NCBI GenBank assembly: GCA_009699865.1
Contig: WLNJ01000003.1
Coordinates: forward strand, 1 to 64,000
DNA: 64,000 bases
Source: Actinomycetota bacterium
GTDB lineage: Bacteria > Actinomycetota > Thermoleophilia > Solirubrobacterales > Solirubrobacteraceae
Reading direction: 5' to 3'
The translations under genes were made by a program, and so were the position numbers. The notes under the pieces are model-generated. The model did not search any database. It had not been told where the DNA came from and saw nothing but the letters and a program-made list of their open reading frames with translations. Shown in pieces: positions 20,029 to 27,823 of this stretch (the first letter of the stretch is position 1; the number at the start of each line of letters is the position of its first letter).

Positions 20029-20847
20029 ATGCTGAAAGCCATTCACATAACCGATCTCCATGCAGGGCGACACGACCTCGCTGCTGCGGACGAGCTATTG
20101 CTCGATATCGCCTCAGCAGAGGCTGACATTGTCCTCATAGGCGGAGACTTCACGCAGCGTTCCAGGCGCTCAGAATGGGAGCGGGCAGCCGGTTGGTTGG
20201 AACAAATTCCAGTGCCATGGCTTGCGACGCCTGGTAATCATGACATTCCGCTATTTGATCTAGGCAGAAGGATCATCTCTCCATTTGGCCGCTATGCGGA
20301 AACGGTGTCGGCTGATCTGGAGCCGATGGTCGACCTAAATGGCACGCTGTTTGTTACCTCGCGAAGCGCCGCCCCTGGACGCCGCGCTGAGGGCGCTGTG
20401 TCGGGCACCTCCTCTCGGCTCCTGGAGCAACGTCTGGAGAGCTCAATCGCATCAGGACCGAGGGTGCTTATGACACACCATCCACTGGTTCGCCATCCCC
20501 AAGCAAGGCCGGGCCGGCCAGCCCGAGGATGGGAGGAGACCCTGTCAGTCGCTCAAGCTGGTGGCGTGGATCTTCTGCTCAGCGGACACACCCACAGGAG
20601 GCACGACGGGCCCTTCTCAGTCAGCGTTGAAGGCAGAAGCCTTATCGCGGCGCCGTCGGGAACGGCATGTTCAACCCGATTGAGGGGAATGGAACCAGCC
20701 TCATGGCAGGTGCTTGAGCTTGAGCCTGACCGAATTCGCATAGAGCCGCGCATCTGGAGTCCAGACCTAGCCTGTTTTCTGACCGGACCCGTCTCGGAGT
20801 GGGTCGGGACCGCGGGATCTTGGAAACAGGACTCAGCTGGGGCGTGA
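20029..20847 (+). CDS. Calcineurin-like metallophosphoesterase (CpdA/Icc-like)
   Basis: A 272-residue phosphoesterase with all metal-site motifs: ITDLHAG (D-x-H), GGDFTQRS (GD), TPGNHDIP (GNHD), MTHHPLV and SGHTHRR (GHTH). This set matches the class III cyclic nucleotide phosphodiesterase-like family, which hydrolyses phosphodiesters with a two-metal centre. The actual substrate (cAMP, UDP-sugar, other) is not predictable. No signal peptide, so cytoplasmic. The end overlaps the convergent cobalamin adenosyltransferase gene by 15 bases. Confidence 0.85.
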   Translation: MLKAIHITDLHAGRHDLAAADELLLDIASAEADIVLIGGDFTQRSRRSEWERAAGWLEQIPVPWLATPGNHDIPLFDLGRRIISPFGRYAETVSADLEPMVDLNGTLFVTSRSAAPGRRAEGAVSGTSSRLLEQRLESSIASGPRVLMTHHPLVRHPQARPGRPARGWEETLSVAQAGGVDLLLSGHTHRRHDGPFSVSVEGRSLIAAPSGTACSTRLRGMEPASWQVLELEPDRIRIEPRIWSPDLACFLTGPVSEWVGTAGSWKQDSAGA

Positions 20848-21393
20848 TGCGCCGGGCTGCCAGAGCTCGTCGTTCCCGCCATTAGAGCCACGGGCAAGGA
20901 TGAAGAGAAGGTCACTCAGTCGGTTTAGGTACCGCAGCACCTCGGGTGAGAGGCCCTCGCAACCAACTGCGTGGCGCTCGGCTCGACGGCAGACAGTTCG
21001 GCAGACGTGGAGTCGTGCTGCCGCTTGGCTTCCGCCTGGAAGAACGAATGACTTGAGTGGCTCAAGGGTTGAGTTGACCTCATCGCAGCGCTCCTCAAGC
21101 CACTTGGTTTGACTTTCCACAACCCGCAGGCGCTGCTCGCCTTCTACCTCGGGAACGGAGGTATCAGCCCCCACATCGAACAGGTCATTCTGGATCCGTG
21201 CGAGCCATGGTCTGTATGCCTCGGGAAGGTCATCGCAGGTTGCGATGACTACCCCGATCAATGAGTTGAGTTCGTCAACAGTCCCGTATGTCTCGATCCG
21301 AGGGTGAGCCTTGCCTACCCGGCTCATGTCGCCTAGGTGAGTCTCGCCATCGTCTCCGAGTCTCGTGTAGATGCGTGTGAGGTTGACAGCCAT
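20833..21393 (-). CDS. pduO: PduO-type ATP:cob(I)alamin adenosyltransferase
   Basis: A 186-residue four-helix-bundle protein of the PduO family, which attaches the adenosyl group to cob(I)alamin to make coenzyme B12. Family motifs: IYTRLGDDGETHLGD (ATP-binding N terminus), IETYGTVDELNSLIG, VLPGGSQAAARLHVCRTVCRRAER and YLNRLSDLLFILAR. The open frame extends upstream to 21576 but that part overlaps the riboswitch on the other strand. The family start is ATG 21393, preceded at seven bases by TAGCGT. It is divergent from the riboswitch operon, so it is not itself under that riboswitch, but it would convert the imported cobalamin to the coenzyme. Confidence 0.93.
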   Translation of the reverse strand: MAVNLTRIYTRLGDDGETHLGDMSRVGKAHPRIETYGTVDELNSLIGVVIATCDDLPEAYRPWLARIQNDLFDVGADTSVPEVEGEQRLRVVESQTKWLEERCDEVNSTLEPLKSFVLPGGSQAAARLHVCRTVCRRAERHAVGCEGLSPEVLRYLNRLSDLLFILARGSNGGNDELWQPGASRPS

Positions 21394-21489: not shown

Positions 21490-21662
21490 CGCAGTAGTGG
21501 TCGGTGGTTCATGGGAAGTCCGGTGCAAATCCGGCGCGGTCCCGCCACTGTGACCGGGGATGTCCCCCGCACGCATCGAGAGGTGCAGCCACTGGAGATT
21601 CGTTCTCTGGGAAGGCGCGGGAGGGTTGGCCCGGGAGCCAGGAAACCTGACTCCGACCAGAA
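21490..21662 (+). ncRNA. Cobalamin (AdoCbl-type) riboswitch
   Basis: The diagnostic conserved blocks are present in order: GGTGGTTCATGGGAAGTCCGG (split by pairing positions, 21503-21522), GTGCAAATCCGGCGC, GGTCCCGCCACTGTGA (21538-21553), and the B12 box GAGCCAGGAAACCTGACTC (21635-21653). Peripheral stems lie between 21556 and 21630. It binds adenosylcobalamin or a relative and lowers expression of the downstream genes when cobalamin is plentiful. It precedes the DUF4430/ECF operon on the same strand. A hairpin over the ribosome site of the first gene (21671-21690) suggests control at translation. Edges are approximate. Confidence 0.93.
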
Positions 21663-21670
21663 ATTACATA

Positions 21671-21690
21671 CACCCTCGAGGAAAGGGGTG
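21671..21690 (+). promoter_or_regulatory. Ribosome-site hairpin downstream of the riboswitch
   Basis: CACCC (21671-21675) pairs with GGGTG (21686-21690), trapping GAGGAAAGGGG, the ribosome site of the gene at 21695. It is probably the expression platform of the cobalamin riboswitch. Confidence 0.5.
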
Positions 21691-21694
21691 GCTA

Positions 21695-22471
21695 ATGCCA
21701 TCTATCACCCGTACCCGCAACTGGTCCGTCTGGATCGGTGCAACGCTAGTTGTCCTTGGTCTCGTGCCACTTGCAGGTTCCGCCTCCGCCACGGGCCCGA
21801 AGGTCAGCACCGTGATTGCCAATCGCAGCGGAATTGTCTTCGGTCCGAAGACGACAGAGGCCCACTCCTTCATCACTCAGGTTGGATCCGCAAAGCGGAG
21901 GTGTCAAGTTGCTCAGGGCACACCCCTCGCAGCACTCAAGGGCACTGGGGTTGTCTTTCATCTGAAGGACTTCGGGCGCTGCTCGATGAACACGAGCGCG
22001 TCAGCCGGGCTGTTTCTAGACAAGCTTGTGAACACCACAAACACCGGCACCTCAGGCTGGACATTCAAGGTCAATAACCGCGCTGGAACAGCGGGAGCCG
22101 CTGATCCCAGTGGCCCCTTTGGGTCCGGGCCGCTCACCACCGGCGACAAGGTCATCTGGTTCTGGTGCGTTTTTGACGCCAACTGGGCCTGCCAGCGCAA
22201 TCTTGTGTTGGTTGCTCCCACTACGGCCGCCACCGGATCATCCATCTCGGTTTCGGTTAGGGCCTATGACGACGCGGGAACATGGGTCCCAGCAGTAGGC
22301 GCGCGCGTCAGCCTAGGAACGGCCAAGGTGGTTACTGGACAGTCGGGGACTGTCGCAATCCAGGCCCCCAGCACGCCCGGGTCCTACCTGCTCAAAGCAG
22401 TTGATGCCACCGGAAGCTCTAGAGGTGGGCAGCGAGCTCCATCCTTCCCGACTGCGCTGGCCGTCTCCTAG
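21695..22471 (+). CDS. Exported DUF4430-like (transcobalamin beta-domain-like) protein
   Basis: A 258-residue protein with a signal peptide (hydrophobic 12-28, AxA site SASATG at about 30-33). The first mature domain (about 50-172) resembles DUF4430, the domain related to the C-terminal beta domain of intrinsic factor and transcobalamin. Landmarks are GTPLAALKG, the GWTFKVNNRAG strand-turn and the LTTGDKVIWFWCVF strand. It has four cysteines (C70, C96, C158, C166), likely two disulfides. The last 80 residues form an Ig-like or carboxypeptidase-regulatory domain (SVSVRAYDDAGTWVPAVGARV... then GTVAIQAPSTPGSYLLKA). The start is ATG 21695; the frame runs back through the riboswitch and must not be extended. 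First gene after the cobalamin riboswitch, so probably an extracellular cobalamin-binding partner of the ECF transporter. Cobalamin binding is inference. Confidence 0.75.
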   Translation: MPSITRTRNWSVWIGATLVVLGLVPLAGSASATGPKVSTVIANRSGIVFGPKTTEAHSFITQVGSAKRRCQVAQGTPLAALKGTGVVFHLKDFGRCSMNTSASAGLFLDKLVNTTNTGTSGWTFKVNNRAGTAGAADPSGPFGSGPLTTGDKVIWFWCVFDANWACQRNLVLVAPTTAATGSSISVSVRAYDDAGTWVPAVGARVSLGTAKVVTGQSGTVAIQAPSTPGSYLLKAVDATGSSRGGQRAPSFPTALAVS

Positions 22472-22480
22472 GGAGAAGGG

Positions 22481-23446
22481 ATGCTGAGGCGGCCGCGCAT
22501 GAAGAGTCGGGGATACCTCTTGGGGGTTATTGCCTTGGGGCTCTCGGCCGCCCTAATGGCTGTTGGCTGTGGTCTGGGTCCTGGCGCACAAACTGGGCAG
22601 ATCACGCTCATGGTGACCTCTGATTTCGGGGACGGCCCGATTGGTAAAGCGAGCGCCGAGACTGGGACTGAGTCCGAGACTGCAATGAGGCAGCTTCAGC
22701 GAGCCCGAACCGTCAAGACCCGTTACGGAGGTCGGTTTGTTCAGTCAATTGACGGCCTGGCAGCGTTCTCGTCGAGCGGGCATCCATTCGACTGGTTCTT
22801 CTTCGTGAATGGGATTGAATCCACGGTTGGAGCGGCTGATGTGACCCTCCATGCCGGCGACGACATCTGGTGGGATCACAGAGACTGGTCAGCGGCCACA
22901 CATGTGCCCGCTGTCGTGGGTGCATGGCCACACCCCTTCACCGGTGGGACGGATGGCAAACGCTTACCTACGCGACTCCTGTGTGCCCCTAACGCAGGCA
23001 ACCAATGCAACAAGGTCGAGGCCGCTCTTGCGGCAGCGGGAATCGTTTCGGCCCGCGGACTCCCTGGCATTGCTGGAAAGGGGAGCGGCCTGCGTGTTCT
23101 GGTTGGGACCTGGGATGAGATCCGTACGGATCCCGCTGCGGCCATCCTGTTGGGTGGGCCGAGTGACTCCGGGGTGTATGTCCAACCCAGCCTCCGCGGA
23201 TCTGGATTTGACCTGCTCAACCCGTCTGGCGAGCGTGGCGCCACATATGGAGCTGGCACGGGCCTTGTTGCGGCAACGGTGGTCGGCGATGCCTTGCCAA
23301 CCTGGCTGGTCACGGGCACGGACAACAAGGGCTTGTCCCTAGCGGTTGAGGCCCTGAATCTGAAGGTTCTTGCCCGTCACTTTGCGGTGCTGCTCACTGC
23401 CGGCGGCAGAGTGGTGCCGGCCCCCATCTCGCCGGAGCAAAGGTGA
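22481..23446 (+). CDS. DUF4430 lipoprotein, predicted surface cobalamin binder
   Basis: A 321-residue protein with a lipoprotein-type signal (LGLSAALMAVGC, lipobox cysteine C30), so it should be anchored to the outer face of the membrane. Residues about 62-136 are a clear DUF4430 domain: FVQSIDGLAAFSSSG, then FDWFFFVNGIESTVGAADV, then LHAGDDIWWDH. This matches the beta domain that caps the ligand in intrinsic factor. The remaining 185 residues are a second domain of unknown type with a cysteine pair (LLCAPNAGNQCNK), typical of actinobacterial DUF4430 proteins. It is the second gene of the riboswitch operon and starts ten bases after the first with a GGAGAAGG ribosome site. Its stop overlaps the ecfT start. 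Confidence 0.8.
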   Translation: MLRRPRMKSRGYLLGVIALGLSAALMAVGCGLGPGAQTGQITLMVTSDFGDGPIGKASAETGTESETAMRQLQRARTVKTRYGGRFVQSIDGLAAFSSSGHPFDWFFFVNGIESTVGAADVTLHAGDDIWWDHRDWSAATHVPAVVGAWPHPFTGGTDGKRLPTRLLCAPNAGNQCNKVEAALAAAGIVSARGLPGIAGKGSGLRVLVGTWDEIRTDPAAAILLGGPSDSGVYVQPSLRGSGFDLLNPSGERGATYGAGTGLVAATVVGDALPTWLVTGTDNKGLSLAVEALNLKVLARHFAVLLTAGGRVVPAPISPEQR

Positions 23447-24312
23447 CTAGCCGTACTGGAACAACCGCGCTTTCGGCCGCTCGGGCTGGAGTCGCGGCCA
23501 TCTGGTGCGGGACCTTGATGGCTGCCGCGCTCACCATCGACCATCCGGTTGGCCTGTTCGCACTGCTGGCCGCGGTCATTTGGGCCGGTTGGCTTGCTGG
23601 GGCTGGGCAGCAACTCCGTAAGGCTTCTCGGTTCGCGCTACCGCTCGCCTTGATGGTCGTGGGAGTCAATGCCATCGTTTCGCGCGATGGCATTACAGTC
23701 ATCGCGCGGCTGGGAGAGATCCCTGTGTTGGGAAGACTGGACATCACACTCGAGGGTCTGGTCTATGGGGCTGTTCTTGGACTCCGGGTTGTGTTGGTCA
23801 GCTTGGCCGCTGTTCTGTTTACTGCCGTCGTTGATCAGGATGAGTTGCTTGGCCTGGTTAGAAGGCGGAGCGGCCGCTTTGGGCTAGCAGCCTCTGTGGC
23901 GGGCCGACTGATGCCGCTTCTTGCCGCGGACGGGGCTCGAATGGCTGAGGCGCGCAGGGCGGTCCCGAAGACACTTGCCGTATCCCGCTTTGACTTAGTC
24001 TCATCAATCGCGACCGGTGCGCTCGACCGTGCGGCGGATGCTGCTGCGGCCCTCGAGCTGCGCGGGCTTGGGGAGGGTCCATGTCTCGCTCCGCGGGCAC
24101 ACCGTCCGTGGTCGCGACACGACTTTGGTTTGTTGATCTCCAGCATGGCCTGCTGTGCCGTTGTCACGGCAGCTTTGATTGGTGGGTGGGTCGACTTTCA
24201 GAGTGCGAGCTCGATCCGCGCAGCTTGGGGCCTCGGGCTCGCCATGACGGTCGTTGTGCTTCCCCTAGTTCTTGTCGCCCCCCTGTTTGAACGTCGAGGG
24301 GTTGGAGGGTGA
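23443..24312 (+). CDS. ecfT: ECF transporter transmembrane subunit EcfT
   Basis: A 289-residue membrane protein of the CbiQ/EcfT family. It has hydrophobic segments near the N terminus (about 12-65) and at 100-130, and C-terminal helices (about 225-285). Between them lies the cytoplasmic coupling region with the paired short Ala-Arg-x motifs: MAEARRAVPKT and AALELRGLGEG, the two helices that dock into the ATPase grooves. It links ATP hydrolysis to movement of the substrate-binding S protein. The GTG start overlaps the upstream stop (GTGA). Third gene of the cobalamin-riboswitch operon. Confidence 0.88.
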   Translation: MTSRTGTTALSAARAGVAAIWCGTLMAAALTIDHPVGLFALLAAVIWAGWLAGAGQQLRKASRFALPLALMVVGVNAIVSRDGITVIARLGEIPVLGRLDITLEGLVYGAVLGLRVVLVSLAAVLFTAVVDQDELLGLVRRRSGRFGLAASVAGRLMPLLAADGARMAEARRAVPKTLAVSRFDLVSSIATGALDRAADAAAALELRGLGEGPCLAPRAHRPWSRHDFGLLISSMACCAVVTAALIGGWVDFQSASSIRAAWGLGLAMTVVVLPLVLVAPLFERRGVGG

Positions 24313-25949
24313 TGGAAAGGCGCGTCGCGATTGAACTGACCGATTTCTCCTACAAGCATCCGGACAGCAGCCGTAAAGCGCTGGATGGCATCAATCTTTC
24401 GATTCGCGAAGGGGAGTTTGTGGTTATTGCTGGAGAGTCGGGAGCGGGCAAGTCAACGCTGGTTAGGGCCATTGCCGGTCTTGCCCCGGCCTTTGATGGC
24501 GGAACGGCCGCCGGGAGCATCGTGGTCTGCGGCCTGAACACTCGGGATAACGGCCCAGCTGGGATTGCCCGTGTCTGCGGAACGGTTCTCCAGGATCCTG
24601 AGCGCCAAGTAGTGATGAACACGGTTAGAGCTGAGCTTGCGCTGCCGCTTGAGAGTCGGGGGAACAGCGACGCTTCCACGGCGAGGGGAGTGGAAGAGGT
24701 TGCCCTGCTGCTCGGGATTGGGGATCTTCTGGACCGGCGACTGCAAGACCTCTCTGGTGGAGAGCTTCAGCGCGTCTCCATCGCGGCGGCACTCGCGGTA
24801 CGTCCTGCGGTTCTTCTCTTGGACGAGCCCACTTCACAGTTGGATCCGGTAGCAGCGGATGACCTCGCTTGGAGCCTCCGGCGTCTAAATGAGGAGCAGG
24901 GGATCACCGTTGTGGTCGCCGAGCAGCGCTTGGAGCGGCTCCTCCCGGCAGCGGACAGAGTCTTGGCGTTGGCTGATGGTGCGATCGCCTGTGATGCGGG
25001 GCCAGAGGAGTTCCTCCGTTGGGGGAGCGCCGGCGCTGGATCCCTCAGCACCCCTGCGGCACGGCTGTTTGTTGCTAGTGGGCTCGCTGACTGTCCCATC
25101 TCGGTTAAGGAAGCCAGGGCTTCGCTGGCTCGCCAAGGGTTCACCGCGGTCAGCCCCGAGCCTGAGGAGACGCTTGCATCAGGCAGTCAGCGATCAAGGT
25201 TGGTGGGGAGATTCTCTCGCAAGGATCCCGGCGCAGACGCAGCGCTCTCAATCTCTGGGCTGTGGGATGAACGTCCTGATGGCCGAGCAATCCTGAAGGG
25301 GATTGATCTCACGGTTGAGCCTGGTGAGGTGATCGCCTTGATGGGTCGCAATGGGGCTGGCAAGTCAACGCTCTTGCGTCACGCGGCAGGCTTGCTTAAG
25401 CCCTCTAGGGGGAAGGCCGCGGTCAGCGGCCGGGTTGCGTACCTCTCCCAGACTCCAGGCGCCTACCTCGCCGGTGAGCGACTTGGCGACTGCGTTCCCA
25501 TTGAGCTCCTTGAGGAGGCCGGTCTGGCTGGGCTGGCCGACAGGCATCCACGGGACCTTTCAGGAGGCGAGGTCCAGCGAGCGGCTCTGGCACTTGTTAC
25601 GGCCTCCGGGTCTGGGGTTGAGCCGCCTGCCTTGGTTCTCTTGGATGAGCCAACGCGAGGCATGGACATGGGTAATGCCGAGGGGCTCCTTGCGCGGATC
25701 AGTTACCACGCCAGTCAGGGAGCAGCGGTTGTTGTCGCGACGCACGATCCTGAGCTGGCTGCGGCCGCAGCGCAGAGAACGGTCCTGATGGGGGAGGGCA
25801 CACTCCTAGTGGATGCCCGAAGTGTTGATGTCCTGACTGGCGGCTGGTACTTCGCAACGGAGACCGCTCGTATCCTGGATGGGGCGGGTGGAGCCCTGCT
25901 GCCGCAGCAGGGAGCGGATTTGCTCGCAGCGGCAGGGGTGGGACGATGA
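24309..25949 (+). CDS. ecfA: ECF transporter ATPase, two ABC domains in one chain (EcfA-EcfA')
   Basis: A 546-residue protein with two complete ATP-binding cassettes. The first has Walker A GESGAGKST (42-50), Q-loop LQDPERQ, signature LSGGELQ (148-154) and Walker B VLLLDEP. The second has Walker A GRNGAGKST (346-354), signature LSGGEVQ (417-423), Walker B LVLLDEP (442-448) and the H-loop ATHD. The first domain lacks a standard H-loop histidine (VVAEQRLE follows the D-loop region), so the two sites are probably asymmetric. Most ECF systems use two separate ATPases; the fused form is known in actinobacteria. It energises the EcfT/S-protein pair on either side. Translationally coupled to both neighbours. 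Confidence 0.9.
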   Translation: MMERRVAIELTDFSYKHPDSSRKALDGINLSIREGEFVVIAGESGAGKSTLVRAIAGLAPAFDGGTAAGSIVVCGLNTRDNGPAGIARVCGTVLQDPERQVVMNTVRAELALPLESRGNSDASTARGVEEVALLLGIGDLLDRRLQDLSGGELQRVSIAAALAVRPAVLLLDEPTSQLDPVAADDLAWSLRRLNEEQGITVVVAEQRLERLLPAADRVLALADGAIACDAGPEEFLRWGSAGAGSLSTPAARLFVASGLADCPISVKEARASLARQGFTAVSPEPEETLASGSQRSRLVGRFSRKDPGADAALSISGLWDERPDGRAILKGIDLTVEPGEVIALMGRNGAGKSTLLRHAAGLLKPSRGKAAVSGRVAYLSQTPGAYLAGERLGDCVPIELLEEAGLAGLADRHPRDLSGGEVQRAALALVTASGSGVEPPALVLLDEPTRGMDMGNAEGLLARISYHASQGAAVVVATHDPELAAAAAQRTVLMGEGTLLVDARSVDVLTGGWYFATETARILDGAGGALLPQQGADLLAAAGVGR

Positions 25950-27823
25950 GCTGGGGGCTGGCCTCAATGGTCCTTCTCCTGTTTGCACTTGGCACGCAGC
26001 TACTGGCATTTGAACGGGGGCAGATGTCGGCCAGGTCATTGGCCTTAGTCGCCGCGCTCGCCGCATTGGCAGTGGCTGGTCGACTGGCGTTTGCGCCGCT
26101 GCCCAATGTCAAACCGACAACGGACATTGTTCTGATTGCCGGTTTCGCCCTTGGGGCGTCACCTGGCTTTGCGGTTGGTGCACTGACGGCGTTGGTCTCG
26201 AACATGGTCTTCGGGCAAGGCCCTTGGACGCCATGGCAGATGTTCGCGTGGGGGCTGGTCGGCCTCTTCGGCGCCCTGCTCGCAAGGGTCACCCGCGGAA
26301 GGATCGGACGGTGGCAACTCGCCGCGGCTGGTGCGTTGGCCGGTCTTGGCTACGGCGTCGTAATGGATGTCTCGCAGTGGCTCCTCTACGGCGGGACACC
26401 GAAGCAATCAACGCTGATCGCCTACTCGATTACTTCTCTGCCTTGGAATATCGCTCACGCGGCCGGGAACGCCGTCTTCGCAATTGCATTCGGGCCTGCT
26501 CTGATCTCTGCGGTTCGGCGCGCGTCACAGAAGCTCGAGGCAGTATGGCTGCCGCCTGGAGTTCCGATGCAAGGGCTTGCGATCCCGGCACTCCTAGCGA
26601 TTGTGGTTGGCTTCCCGGCACTCGCCGGGGGCGCTTATGGGGGGACGTCTTCGAAGTCAGCTGGTGACTCGGTCAGGGCAGGGGGCCTGAGATGGCTTCT
26701 TGCCGCCCAGAACCGTGACGGCGGGTTCCCCGAGTCTCCGGGAAGTGGGGCCACATCATCTCCAAGGGAAACCGCTTGGGCGGCATTGGCTCTCGCGGCG
26801 GCAGGAGAGGACCTCTCGAGTCTTCGCAAGCCGGGAGGGCGGTCCGTTGTCGATGCGCTCATTTCGGATTCTCGGGAGATGGAGTCCCAAACAGGTGACT
26901 CGCCAGAGGAGCGGGCTGGCTGGGAGGAGCGGATTGCCCTTGCAGCTGCGGCTGCTGGTGCCAACCCGCACGACTTTGGGGGGCACAACTTGGTCGGCGA
27001 GATCCGCGCTCGGATCGGGAAGTCGGGGGCGGTCAACTACTACGGACCGGGAGACCCCTCTGTCAATTTGACGGCTTACGCAATCCTTGCGCTCAGGGCC
27101 GGTGGGGTAGCGAGCAATGACCGGACCCTTAGCCGAGCAGCACGCTGGCTCGGGCGTCAGCAGCAACGCGATGGAGGTTTCTCCATCTCACCGAGAGGGG
27201 CAATTGTCCGAAGCGGCGATGTGGATACCACTGGGGCCGTGCTCCAGGCGCTCCGGTCGGCCGGCCGCAGTCGCGACGGAGTGGTCGGTCGGGCCCATGC
27301 GTTTCTAGTCTCAGCGCAGGCAGGCGGGGGAGGCTTTGGCGCGTCTACCGGCTCAGGGGCCAATGCTCAATCAACGGCGATGGGGCTGCTCGGCCTTAGG
27401 GCTTTCCGGCTCGGTGGTTCAGCCACATCGGTGAAGGAGGCGTCGGGCTGGCTCGTGCGCTGTCTTGAATCGTCTGGCCGGGTCGACTACTCGCCGGCTT
27501 CTGGGGGTCACTCTGCGTCGCGCCAGACGCCTGTCTGGGTGACCGCTCAGGTGCTTCTCGCGGAGAGCGGACGCAACCTGCCGATTGTGACTTTGGCTCA
27601 TCAGAGGAGTTTTGGGGCAGCAGGATCACAGTCAGCGAATGGAGCCTCAGGGACGCCCGCTTCCGCCGCCGCTGCTCGGAAGAAGAGGGCCAAAAAGGCA
27701 GAGGCCATAAGGGTCAAGCGCATCAGGGTGGATGCCGGGCGGGTTGCGTCCGTGAGGACCGCAGTGGTCGCAGGGCACCTCCTCGGAGTGCTCGTGCGGG
27801 CCTTCAGTGGAGCCAACCGCTAG
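25946..27823 (+). CDS. ECF S-component fused to a terpenoid-cyclase-like alpha/alpha toroid (transcobalamin alpha-domain-like)
   Basis: A 625-residue fusion. Residues 1-195 are a hydrophobic ECF S-component. The typical stretch is PNVKPTTDIVLIAGFALG, then a helix pair ending SNMVFGQGPWTPWQMFAWGLVG, and C-terminal helices with LPWNIAHAAGNAVF. One more membrane helix (about 210-230) should move the rest outside. Residues about 245-580 are squalene-cyclase/prenyltransferase-type repeats with three DGGF-like turns (AAQNRDGGF, RQQQRDGGF, SAQAGGGGF) and intervening TAYAILALRAGG and TGAVLQALRSAG helices. That fold is also the alpha domain of intrinsic factor and transcobalamin. The C-terminal tail is basic (KKRAKKAEAIRVKRIRV) and may end in another hydrophobic stretch. 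It is the last gene of the cobalamin-riboswitch operon. I infer cobalamin capture and transport in one chain. The cyclase catalytic DxDD is absent, so it is not a terpene cyclase. Confidence 0.8.
   Translation: MSWGLASMVLLLFALGTQLLAFERGQMSARSLALVAALAALAVAGRLAFAPLPNVKPTTDIVLIAGFALGASPGFAVGALTALVSNMVFGQGPWTPWQMFAWGLVGLFGALLARVTRGRIGRWQLAAAGALAGLGYGVVMDVSQWLLYGGTPKQSTLIAYSITSLPWNIAHAAGNAVFAIAFGPALISAVRRASQKLEAVWLPPGVPMQGLAIPALLAIVVGFPALAGGAYGGTSSKSAGDSVRAGGLRWLLAAQNRDGGFPESPGSGATSSPRETAWAALALAAAGEDLSSLRKPGGRSVVDALISDSREMESQTGDSPEERAGWEERIALAAAAAGANPHDFGGHNLVGEIRARIGKSGAVNYYGPGDPSVNLTAYAILALRAGGVASNDRTLSRAARWLGRQQQRDGGFSISPRGAIVRSGDVDTTGAVLQALRSAGRSRDGVVGRAHAFLVSAQAGGGGFGASTGSGANAQSTAMGLLGLRAFRLGGSATSVKEASGWLVRCLESSGRVDYSPASGGHSASRQTPVWVTAQVLLAESGRNLPIVTLAHQRSFGAAGSQSANGASGTPASAAAARKKRAKKAEAIRVKRIRVDAGRVASVRTAVVAGHLLGVLVRAFSGANR

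Follow-up and report, generated by a model that had tools for sequence, protein, structure and literature searches.

How do bacteria capture vitamin B12 (cobalamin) at the cell surface before importing it? For Gram-positive-type bacteria without BtuF, this step is poorly known. The question is raised by a five-gene operon encoding proteins of DUF4430, a family that had no assigned function. The operon lies in a 64,000-nucleotide stretch of DNA from a member of the Solirubrobacteraceae (Actinomycetota; assembly GCA_009699865.1, contig WLNJ01000003.1, positions 1 to 64,000, forward strand), hereafter the window. We read it as a system for cobalamin-repressed B12 uptake, in which a dedicated energy-coupling factor (ECF) transporter of the CbrT type carries a two-part surface capture module of the transcobalamin type (probability about 0.72). 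The riboswitch, gene identities, CbrT homology, folds, fusions and co-occurrence on which this reading draws were all computed. An earlier note, made from the letters of the window, had proposed that the operon divides the two domains of animal cobalamin carriers between surface proteins and the transporter.

Operon structure and regulation

The five genes lie on the + strand behind a cobalamin riboswitch aptamer (RF00174) that occurs once in the window and once in the whole genome (Table 1). The last three gene junctions overlap by 4 bases. Gene 5 (25946-27823) encodes an S-component fused to an alpha/alpha repeat domain, referred to here as the toroid. The earlier note had described a cobalamin riboswitch before five tight or overlapping genes, with EcfT, a double ATPase and an S-protein fused to terpenoid-cyclase-like repeats among the products, and this was confirmed by the aptamer score, the gene coordinates and Pfam matches. 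On the 3' side of the aptamer, a ribosome-binding-like GGAAAGG was located at 21680-21686, followed by the gene 1 ATG at 21695. No terminator-like site was found between RF00174 and this ATG. Riboswitch control of the operon is likely translational, because the ribosome-binding-like site and start codon directly follow the aptamer without such a site.

The riboswitch was then surveyed in 61 related genomes, as the earlier note had proposed. A placeable S or S-toroid gene was present in 45 of them; the named loci belonged to Solirubrobacterales, Conexibacter and relatives. RF00174 was found on the same strand upstream of the S gene in 36/36 loci with intact upstream sequence (median distance 4.6 kb); with none of the assessable loci lacking it, the arrangement is not a chance one. 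Nine loci were cut by contig ends. Every intact operon carried at least one DUF4430 gene between riboswitch and EcfT, and an adenosyltransferase homologue was close to the operon in many relatives.

Table 1. Features of the B12 uptake locus in the window.
Feature	Position	Strand	Evidence or remarks
PduO-type ATP:cob(I)alamin adenosyltransferase (divergent neighbour)	20833-21393	-	PF01923 208.7 bits
Cobalamin riboswitch aptamer RF00174	21488-21668	+	85.6 bits, gathering score 31.5, full length
Gene 1, exported DUF4430-type protein	21695-22471	+	Signal-peptide-like N-terminal segment; DUF4430-like domain about 21818-22204
Gene 2, DUF4430 lipoprotein	22481-23446	+	Cys30 codon 22568; DUF4430 domain about 22568-22891; second alpha/beta domain, residues about 144-316
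Gene 3, EcfT transmembrane component	23443-24312	+	PF02361 CbiQ 34.4 bits
Gene 4, fused double ATPase EcfA-EcfA'	24309-25949	+	Two ABC_tran domains
Gene 5, N-terminal part, CbrT-type S-component	25946-26548	+	One extra N-terminal hydrophobic helix
Gene 5, hydrophobic linker, residues 210-228	26573-26629	+	Hydropathy peak 2.11 after basic stretch; predicted to take the chain outside
Gene 5, C-terminal alpha6/alpha6 toroid, residues 236-560	26651-27625	+	SQHop_cyclase_C 40.6 bits
Gene 5, basic tail with weak C-terminal hydrophobic segment, residues 599-623	27626-27823	+	Sequence, hydropathy

Transporter and ligand

The S-domain was assigned by its similarity to CbrT. Residues 29-194 of the gene 5 protein matched PDB chain 6fnp_A (CbrT) with an E-value of 2.5e-17, the sole PDB match by single sequence, and a profile search gave 3.7e-25. 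In Pfam, gene 5 scored 30.7 bits against ECF_trnsprt, right at the cut-off. Gene 4 scored 250 bits against the ECF ATPase model TIGR04520, under that model's cut-off. The cobalamin transporter deposited as 6FNP, ECF-CbrT of L. delbrueckii, has been shown to transport both B12 and cobinamide (PMC5997447).

The genome to which the window belongs (92% complete) encodes three proteins with a B12-binding domain, one of them methionine synthase. No match was obtained in it for the FecCD/BtuC permease (PF01032) or for CobS. The cell thus needs B12, is probably unable to synthesise it, and has no detected BtuCD. Import of B12 through the operon is close to certain because of the riboswitch, the CbrT homology, the adenosyltransferase neighbour and a genome that depends on B12 but yielded no BtuC or CobS; the same evidence upholds the cobalamin import put forward in the earlier note.

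The same architecture might instead serve a corrinoid other than cobalamin, namely cobinamide or pseudocobalamin, or accept corrinoids broadly. L. delbrueckii CbrT carries cobinamide besides cobalamin (PMC5997447), and the riboswitch reports cobalamin-type regulation only. However, the genome contains B12-dependent enzymes, and cobinamide would be hard to use because no CobS match was found. We therefore give this alternative little credence.

DUF4430 proteins as beta domains

The gene 2 protein matched DUF4430 (PF14478) with 49.4 bits at a cut-off of 23.8, and its lipoprotein Cys30 was invariant in 34 homologues. Its AlphaFold2 model had a predicted local distance difference test (pLDDT) score of 92.9. 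Among the 15 best VIA matches of the DUF4430 model, only transcobalamin, intrinsic factor, haptocorrin and the R. gnavus protein 3u7z appeared (Z 11.6 to 13.3), with 4kki at Z 13.3 (1.9 A over 95 residues), 2v3n at Z 12.5 and 3u7z at Z 12.3. Conversely, residues 333-405 of human transcobalamin were assigned to PF14478 by Pfam (25.0 bits). A PDB sequence search with the DUF4430-protein profile returned no transcobalamin chain; the link appears only via Pfam on the human protein, profile comparison and fold. Family membership and fold both identify the DUF4430 domain with the beta domain of transcobalamin, which supports the identification in the earlier note.

That note had also counted two exported DUF4430 proteins. 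Gene 2 qualified by its Pfam score, but gene 1 stayed under the Pfam cut-off (13.8 bits against PF14478) and was recognised as a member by profile comparison. Here, the gene 1 and gene 2 families were matched with 99.3% probability (reversed control 0.4%). Several close gene 1 homologues passed the PF14478 cut-off in Pfam.

The second domain of the gene 2 protein (residues 144-316, window 22910-23430) is similar in fold to BcsB domains and to the domain at the N-terminus of GH67/GH115 glucuronidases, with Z about 10-11. It contains two conserved cysteines at positions 168 and 176.

Fold, conserved residues and location of the toroid

Besides the SQHop_cyclase_C match, the toroid region of gene 5 scored 28.7 bits against Prenyltrans in Pfam. 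The AlphaFold2 model (pLDDT 93.1, predicted template modelling score 0.92) contained 12 main helices, which supports a predicted 12-helix alpha6/alpha6 barrel and agrees with the alpha/alpha toroid named in the earlier note. Six positions, at the N-terminal ends of inner helices, were kept in all or nearly all homologues (D427, T429, N473, S476, W531 and T533). Of these, D427, T429, N473, S476 and T533 are polar and lie at one mouth of the barrel. The polar positions correspond by motif to T134, D176 and N224 of transcobalamin, which we take to be cobalamin contacts.

PF01122, the animal alpha domain, was not matched by the gene 5 protein in Pfam, and no transcobalamin chain was returned by a PDB sequence search with the profile of toroid and S-domain. 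The absence of transcobalamin from the 50 fold matches listed for the toroid model says nothing either way.

S-components usually have a cytoplasmic C-terminus. The S-domain of gene 5 is followed by a basic stretch and a hydrophobic segment, and given this usual topology the toroid is probably outside the cell. Many gene 5 homologues have a clear C-terminal membrane segment, and stand-alone toroids have a signal peptide and are anchored at the C-terminus by a membrane segment or an LPXTG motif. In many fused homologues the linker between S-domain and toroid resembles an internal signal peptide with an AxA end (alignment A1, columns 205-290), so that the toroid might be cleaved free after translation.

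Could the toroid be an active or former terpenoid-cyclase-like enzyme, fused to the transporter by accident? In sequence and fold it is matched best by squalene-hopene and drimenyl diphosphate synthases; class II terpene cyclases head the fold matches (2sqc: Z 29.3, 2.8 A, 279 residues), and the toroid repeats are of the QW type. A shared fold, however, shows no function. Many homologues keep DVDDT, which resembles the DXDD motif of class II cyclases, but the full motif was found in only 33/70 homologues, and the window toroid has an incomplete DVDT. The surface location indicated by signal peptides and by C-terminal or LPXTG anchors, and the constant linkage of the toroid to B12 riboswitches, DUF4430 and CbrT, also speak against an enzyme. 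A cytoplasmic or terpenoid role was considered and set aside, and we judge it very improbable.

Linkage of toroid and DUF4430

The two domains were found joined in single chains, which is the strongest evidence for their linkage. In L. brevis (plasmid p47-5, L242) and L. kefiranofaciens (L241), one protein consists of an N-terminal toroid and a C-terminal DUF4430 domain (PF14478: 49.3 and 51.6 bits, respectively). The toroid part of these fusions was matched by tblastn to the L. curvatus toroid and scored 17-18 bits with our own profile. RF00174 lies directly upstream of both fusion genes, and plasmid p47-5 also carries cobS and a CbrT-like ECF operon near the fusion gene. In L. curvatus, the toroid (with an LPXTG anchor), DUF4430, EcfT, double ATPase and S genes are consecutive.

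The order is reversed in a 1566-residue secreted protein of Vescimonas fastidiosa (L243:5212-9912), which has an N-terminal DUF4430 (PF14478, 26.6 bits), a C-terminal toroid (E 1.2e-25) and a cadherin-like domain. No RF00174 match was obtained in the stretch fetched around this gene. Two actinobacterial genomes (L214, L215) encode the toroid in one chain with a DUF4430-type domain; elsewhere, this domain has a neighbouring gene of its own. The C-terminal domain of the two fusions was not called by Pfam and was assigned by the family profile (94.6%; reversed control 0.5%). A toroid protein of Conexibacter arvalis has a C-terminal part that looked DUF4430-like by eye, but this part failed every test and was not used.

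Across Actinomycetota, the toroid is usually a separate gene adjoining S, or the first gene after the riboswitch; in many genomes this first gene begins 50-540 bases behind it. In the actinomycete genome G226 the order is T-A-S-toroid-DUF4430. A same-strand riboswitch was present within 12 kb upstream of 31/50 toroid genes phylum-wide, with many of the others near contig ends. This figure is a co-occurrence count and not an unbiased prevalence, because genomes were chosen for having a toroid match. The fusions behind cobalamin riboswitches, together with the co-occurrence across Actinomycetota and in Lactobacillales, support the view that toroid and DUF4430 belong together.

Proposed mechanism

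The DUF4430 beta domain would be supplied by the gene 2 lipoprotein, with the exported gene 1 protein, and the alpha domain by the toroid, which its fusion to the CbrT-type S-domain would hold at the outer face of the membrane. DUF4430 would bind cobalamin first, and the toroid would then close over the vitamin in the manner of animal transcobalamin. Owing to the same fusion, cobalamin would be released beside the S-domain pocket. Import would be driven by EcfT and the double ATPase, and the neighbouring adenosyltransferase would turn the imported vitamin into coenzyme B12. The extracellular toroid, the binding at the domain interface and the hand-off are what we infer here. A precedent for assembly from two parts would be the proteolytic halves of intrinsic factor, which reassemble around cobalamin. 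Bacteria likely use the two domains as the animal carriers do.

Several observations weigh against a two-part module. The transcobalamin beta domain was crystallised alone with cyanocobalamin (5np4), and DUF4430 may therefore suffice. Lactobacillal CbrT clusters (nrdJ-DUF4430-S-adenosyltransferase) are typically without an adjacent toroid, so that the toroid is not always needed and may only raise affinity. In L066-L068 (genus g28), the ECF operon has no toroid and a lone exported toroid gene is located elsewhere. Comparison of the toroid profile with the transcobalamin alpha domain gave 2%, which is not significant, and both its sequence and its fold scores place the toroid closer to class II cyclases, those of the squalene-hopene type included, than to the animal alpha domain.

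The first two of these observations are also those that favour DUF4430 alone as the extracellular B12-binding lipoprotein of ECF-CbrT, with the toroid as a lid or spacer, structural or regulatory in role, that makes no contact with cobalamin. Such an arrangement accords less well with single-chain fusions of toroid and DUF4430 behind cobalamin riboswitches, with the toroid as first gene after the riboswitch in many genomes, and with conserved polar residues at one toroid mouth. We consider it unlikely, though a more serious contender than an enzyme or another corrinoid, and retain the two-part capture module as our reading.

Comparison with known systems

The earlier note had called the mechanism distinct from plain CbrT-type transporters. 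This was overstated. The operon is an elaboration of ECF-CbrT, since its S-domain is a CbrT homologue and a DUF4430 lipoprotein (cbrS) is already part of known CbrT clusters. With the L. delbrueckii system (Rempel et al. 2018, PMC5997447, PDB 6FNP) it shares the S-component homology, the EcfT/EcfA partners and the proximity to an adenosyltransferase (L. delbrueckii order nrdJ-cbrS-cbrT-pduO). It differs in having dedicated T and double A genes where L. delbrueckii uses a shared module, and only here is S fused to a surface toroid, accompanied by two DUF4430 proteins and controlled by a cobalamin riboswitch. In L. intestinalis, a DUF4430 protein occupies the cbrS position, and an 'additional lipoprotein component of putative cobalamin ECF transporter' is listed in a proteomics paper (PMC9963975). 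The pairing of DUF4430 lipoprotein and CbrT in lactobacilli is already known at annotation level (cbrS, PMC5997447; PMC9963975). The earlier note was not aware of a description of the arrangement; in the literature searched, whose coverage is incomplete, no paper was found that describes the toroid component, the fusions or a relation to animal carriers.

Animal transcobalamin, intrinsic factor and haptocorrin (PF01122 plus PF14478) have the same beta-domain family and fold, an alpha6/alpha6 toroid partner, to which the 12-helix model of the window toroid would correspond, and similar polar motifs at the inner-helix ends. Their single chain, alpha then beta, recurs in the lactobacillal relatives, whereas in the window the domains are split over separate proteins. 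The window toroid is tethered to a transporter, has no PF01122 match and showed no equivalent of His173. It would serve bacterial import, in contrast to the receptor-mediated endocytosis of the animal carriers.

BtuFCD imports B12 in an ATP-driven manner with an extracytoplasmic binding partner. In these respects it is like the operon, but the protein families differ throughout, and no FecCD permease was found in the genome. Compared with the SCO2321 family membrane protein of Streptomyces (NF053823, a model without a functional name), the toroid region scored 69.3 bits against a cut-off of 300; there, the toroid is not fused to an S-component. R. gnavus RUMGNA_00854 (3U7Z) has a similar DUF4430-type fold, but was deposited as putative metal-binding, and its structure has no toroid.

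The evidence ties DUF4430 and a terpene-cyclase-like toroid to B12 capture in at least two phyla (Actinomycetota, Bacillota). It predicts a function for many proteins annotated only as DUF4430, 'SCO2321 family', 'DUF5776' or 'LPXTG', and offers a bacterial parallel to the human B12 carriers that is open to test and may be their source. More tentatively, and with somewhat less than even chances in our estimate, toroid and DUF4430 may be an old bacterial B12-capture module (split, ECF-CbrT-tethered or single-chain) from which animal intrinsic factor and transcobalamin descend. The operon would then be a living split version, with cobalamin assembling both halves atop the transporter.

Variant loci

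The lone toroid genes of L066-L068 have no riboswitch near them; that of L066 adjoins an isoleucyl-tRNA-synthetase-like gene. L071 (G056 contig 4) has a riboswitch and DUF4430 followed by a truncated EcfT and toroid, without ATPase or S gene, and is apparently a decayed operon. The Solirubrobacterales-type operon was also found in three records titled Bifidobacterium breve metagenome-assembled genome and one titled Chlamydiae (L076, L092, L137, L107); these names look wrong.

In Conexibacter arvalis DSM 23288 (L231:7645-16674, G025 contig 4), two divergent cobalamin riboswitches each precede toroid and DUF4430 genes. No ECF genes were found at this locus with the profiles used, and it is apparently a capture module without its own transporter.

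BtuG of Bacteroides offers an analogue for a different first gene. At L201:74-2755 (G170), the gene following the cobalamin riboswitch encodes an exported protein, about 900 residues long, in which PQQ-type beta-propeller repeats occur together with DUF5719. By that analogy, the protein may also bind B12 at the cell surface. In G138, G127, G253, G242 and G231, riboswitch and DUF4430 gene are separated by a gap of comparable length.

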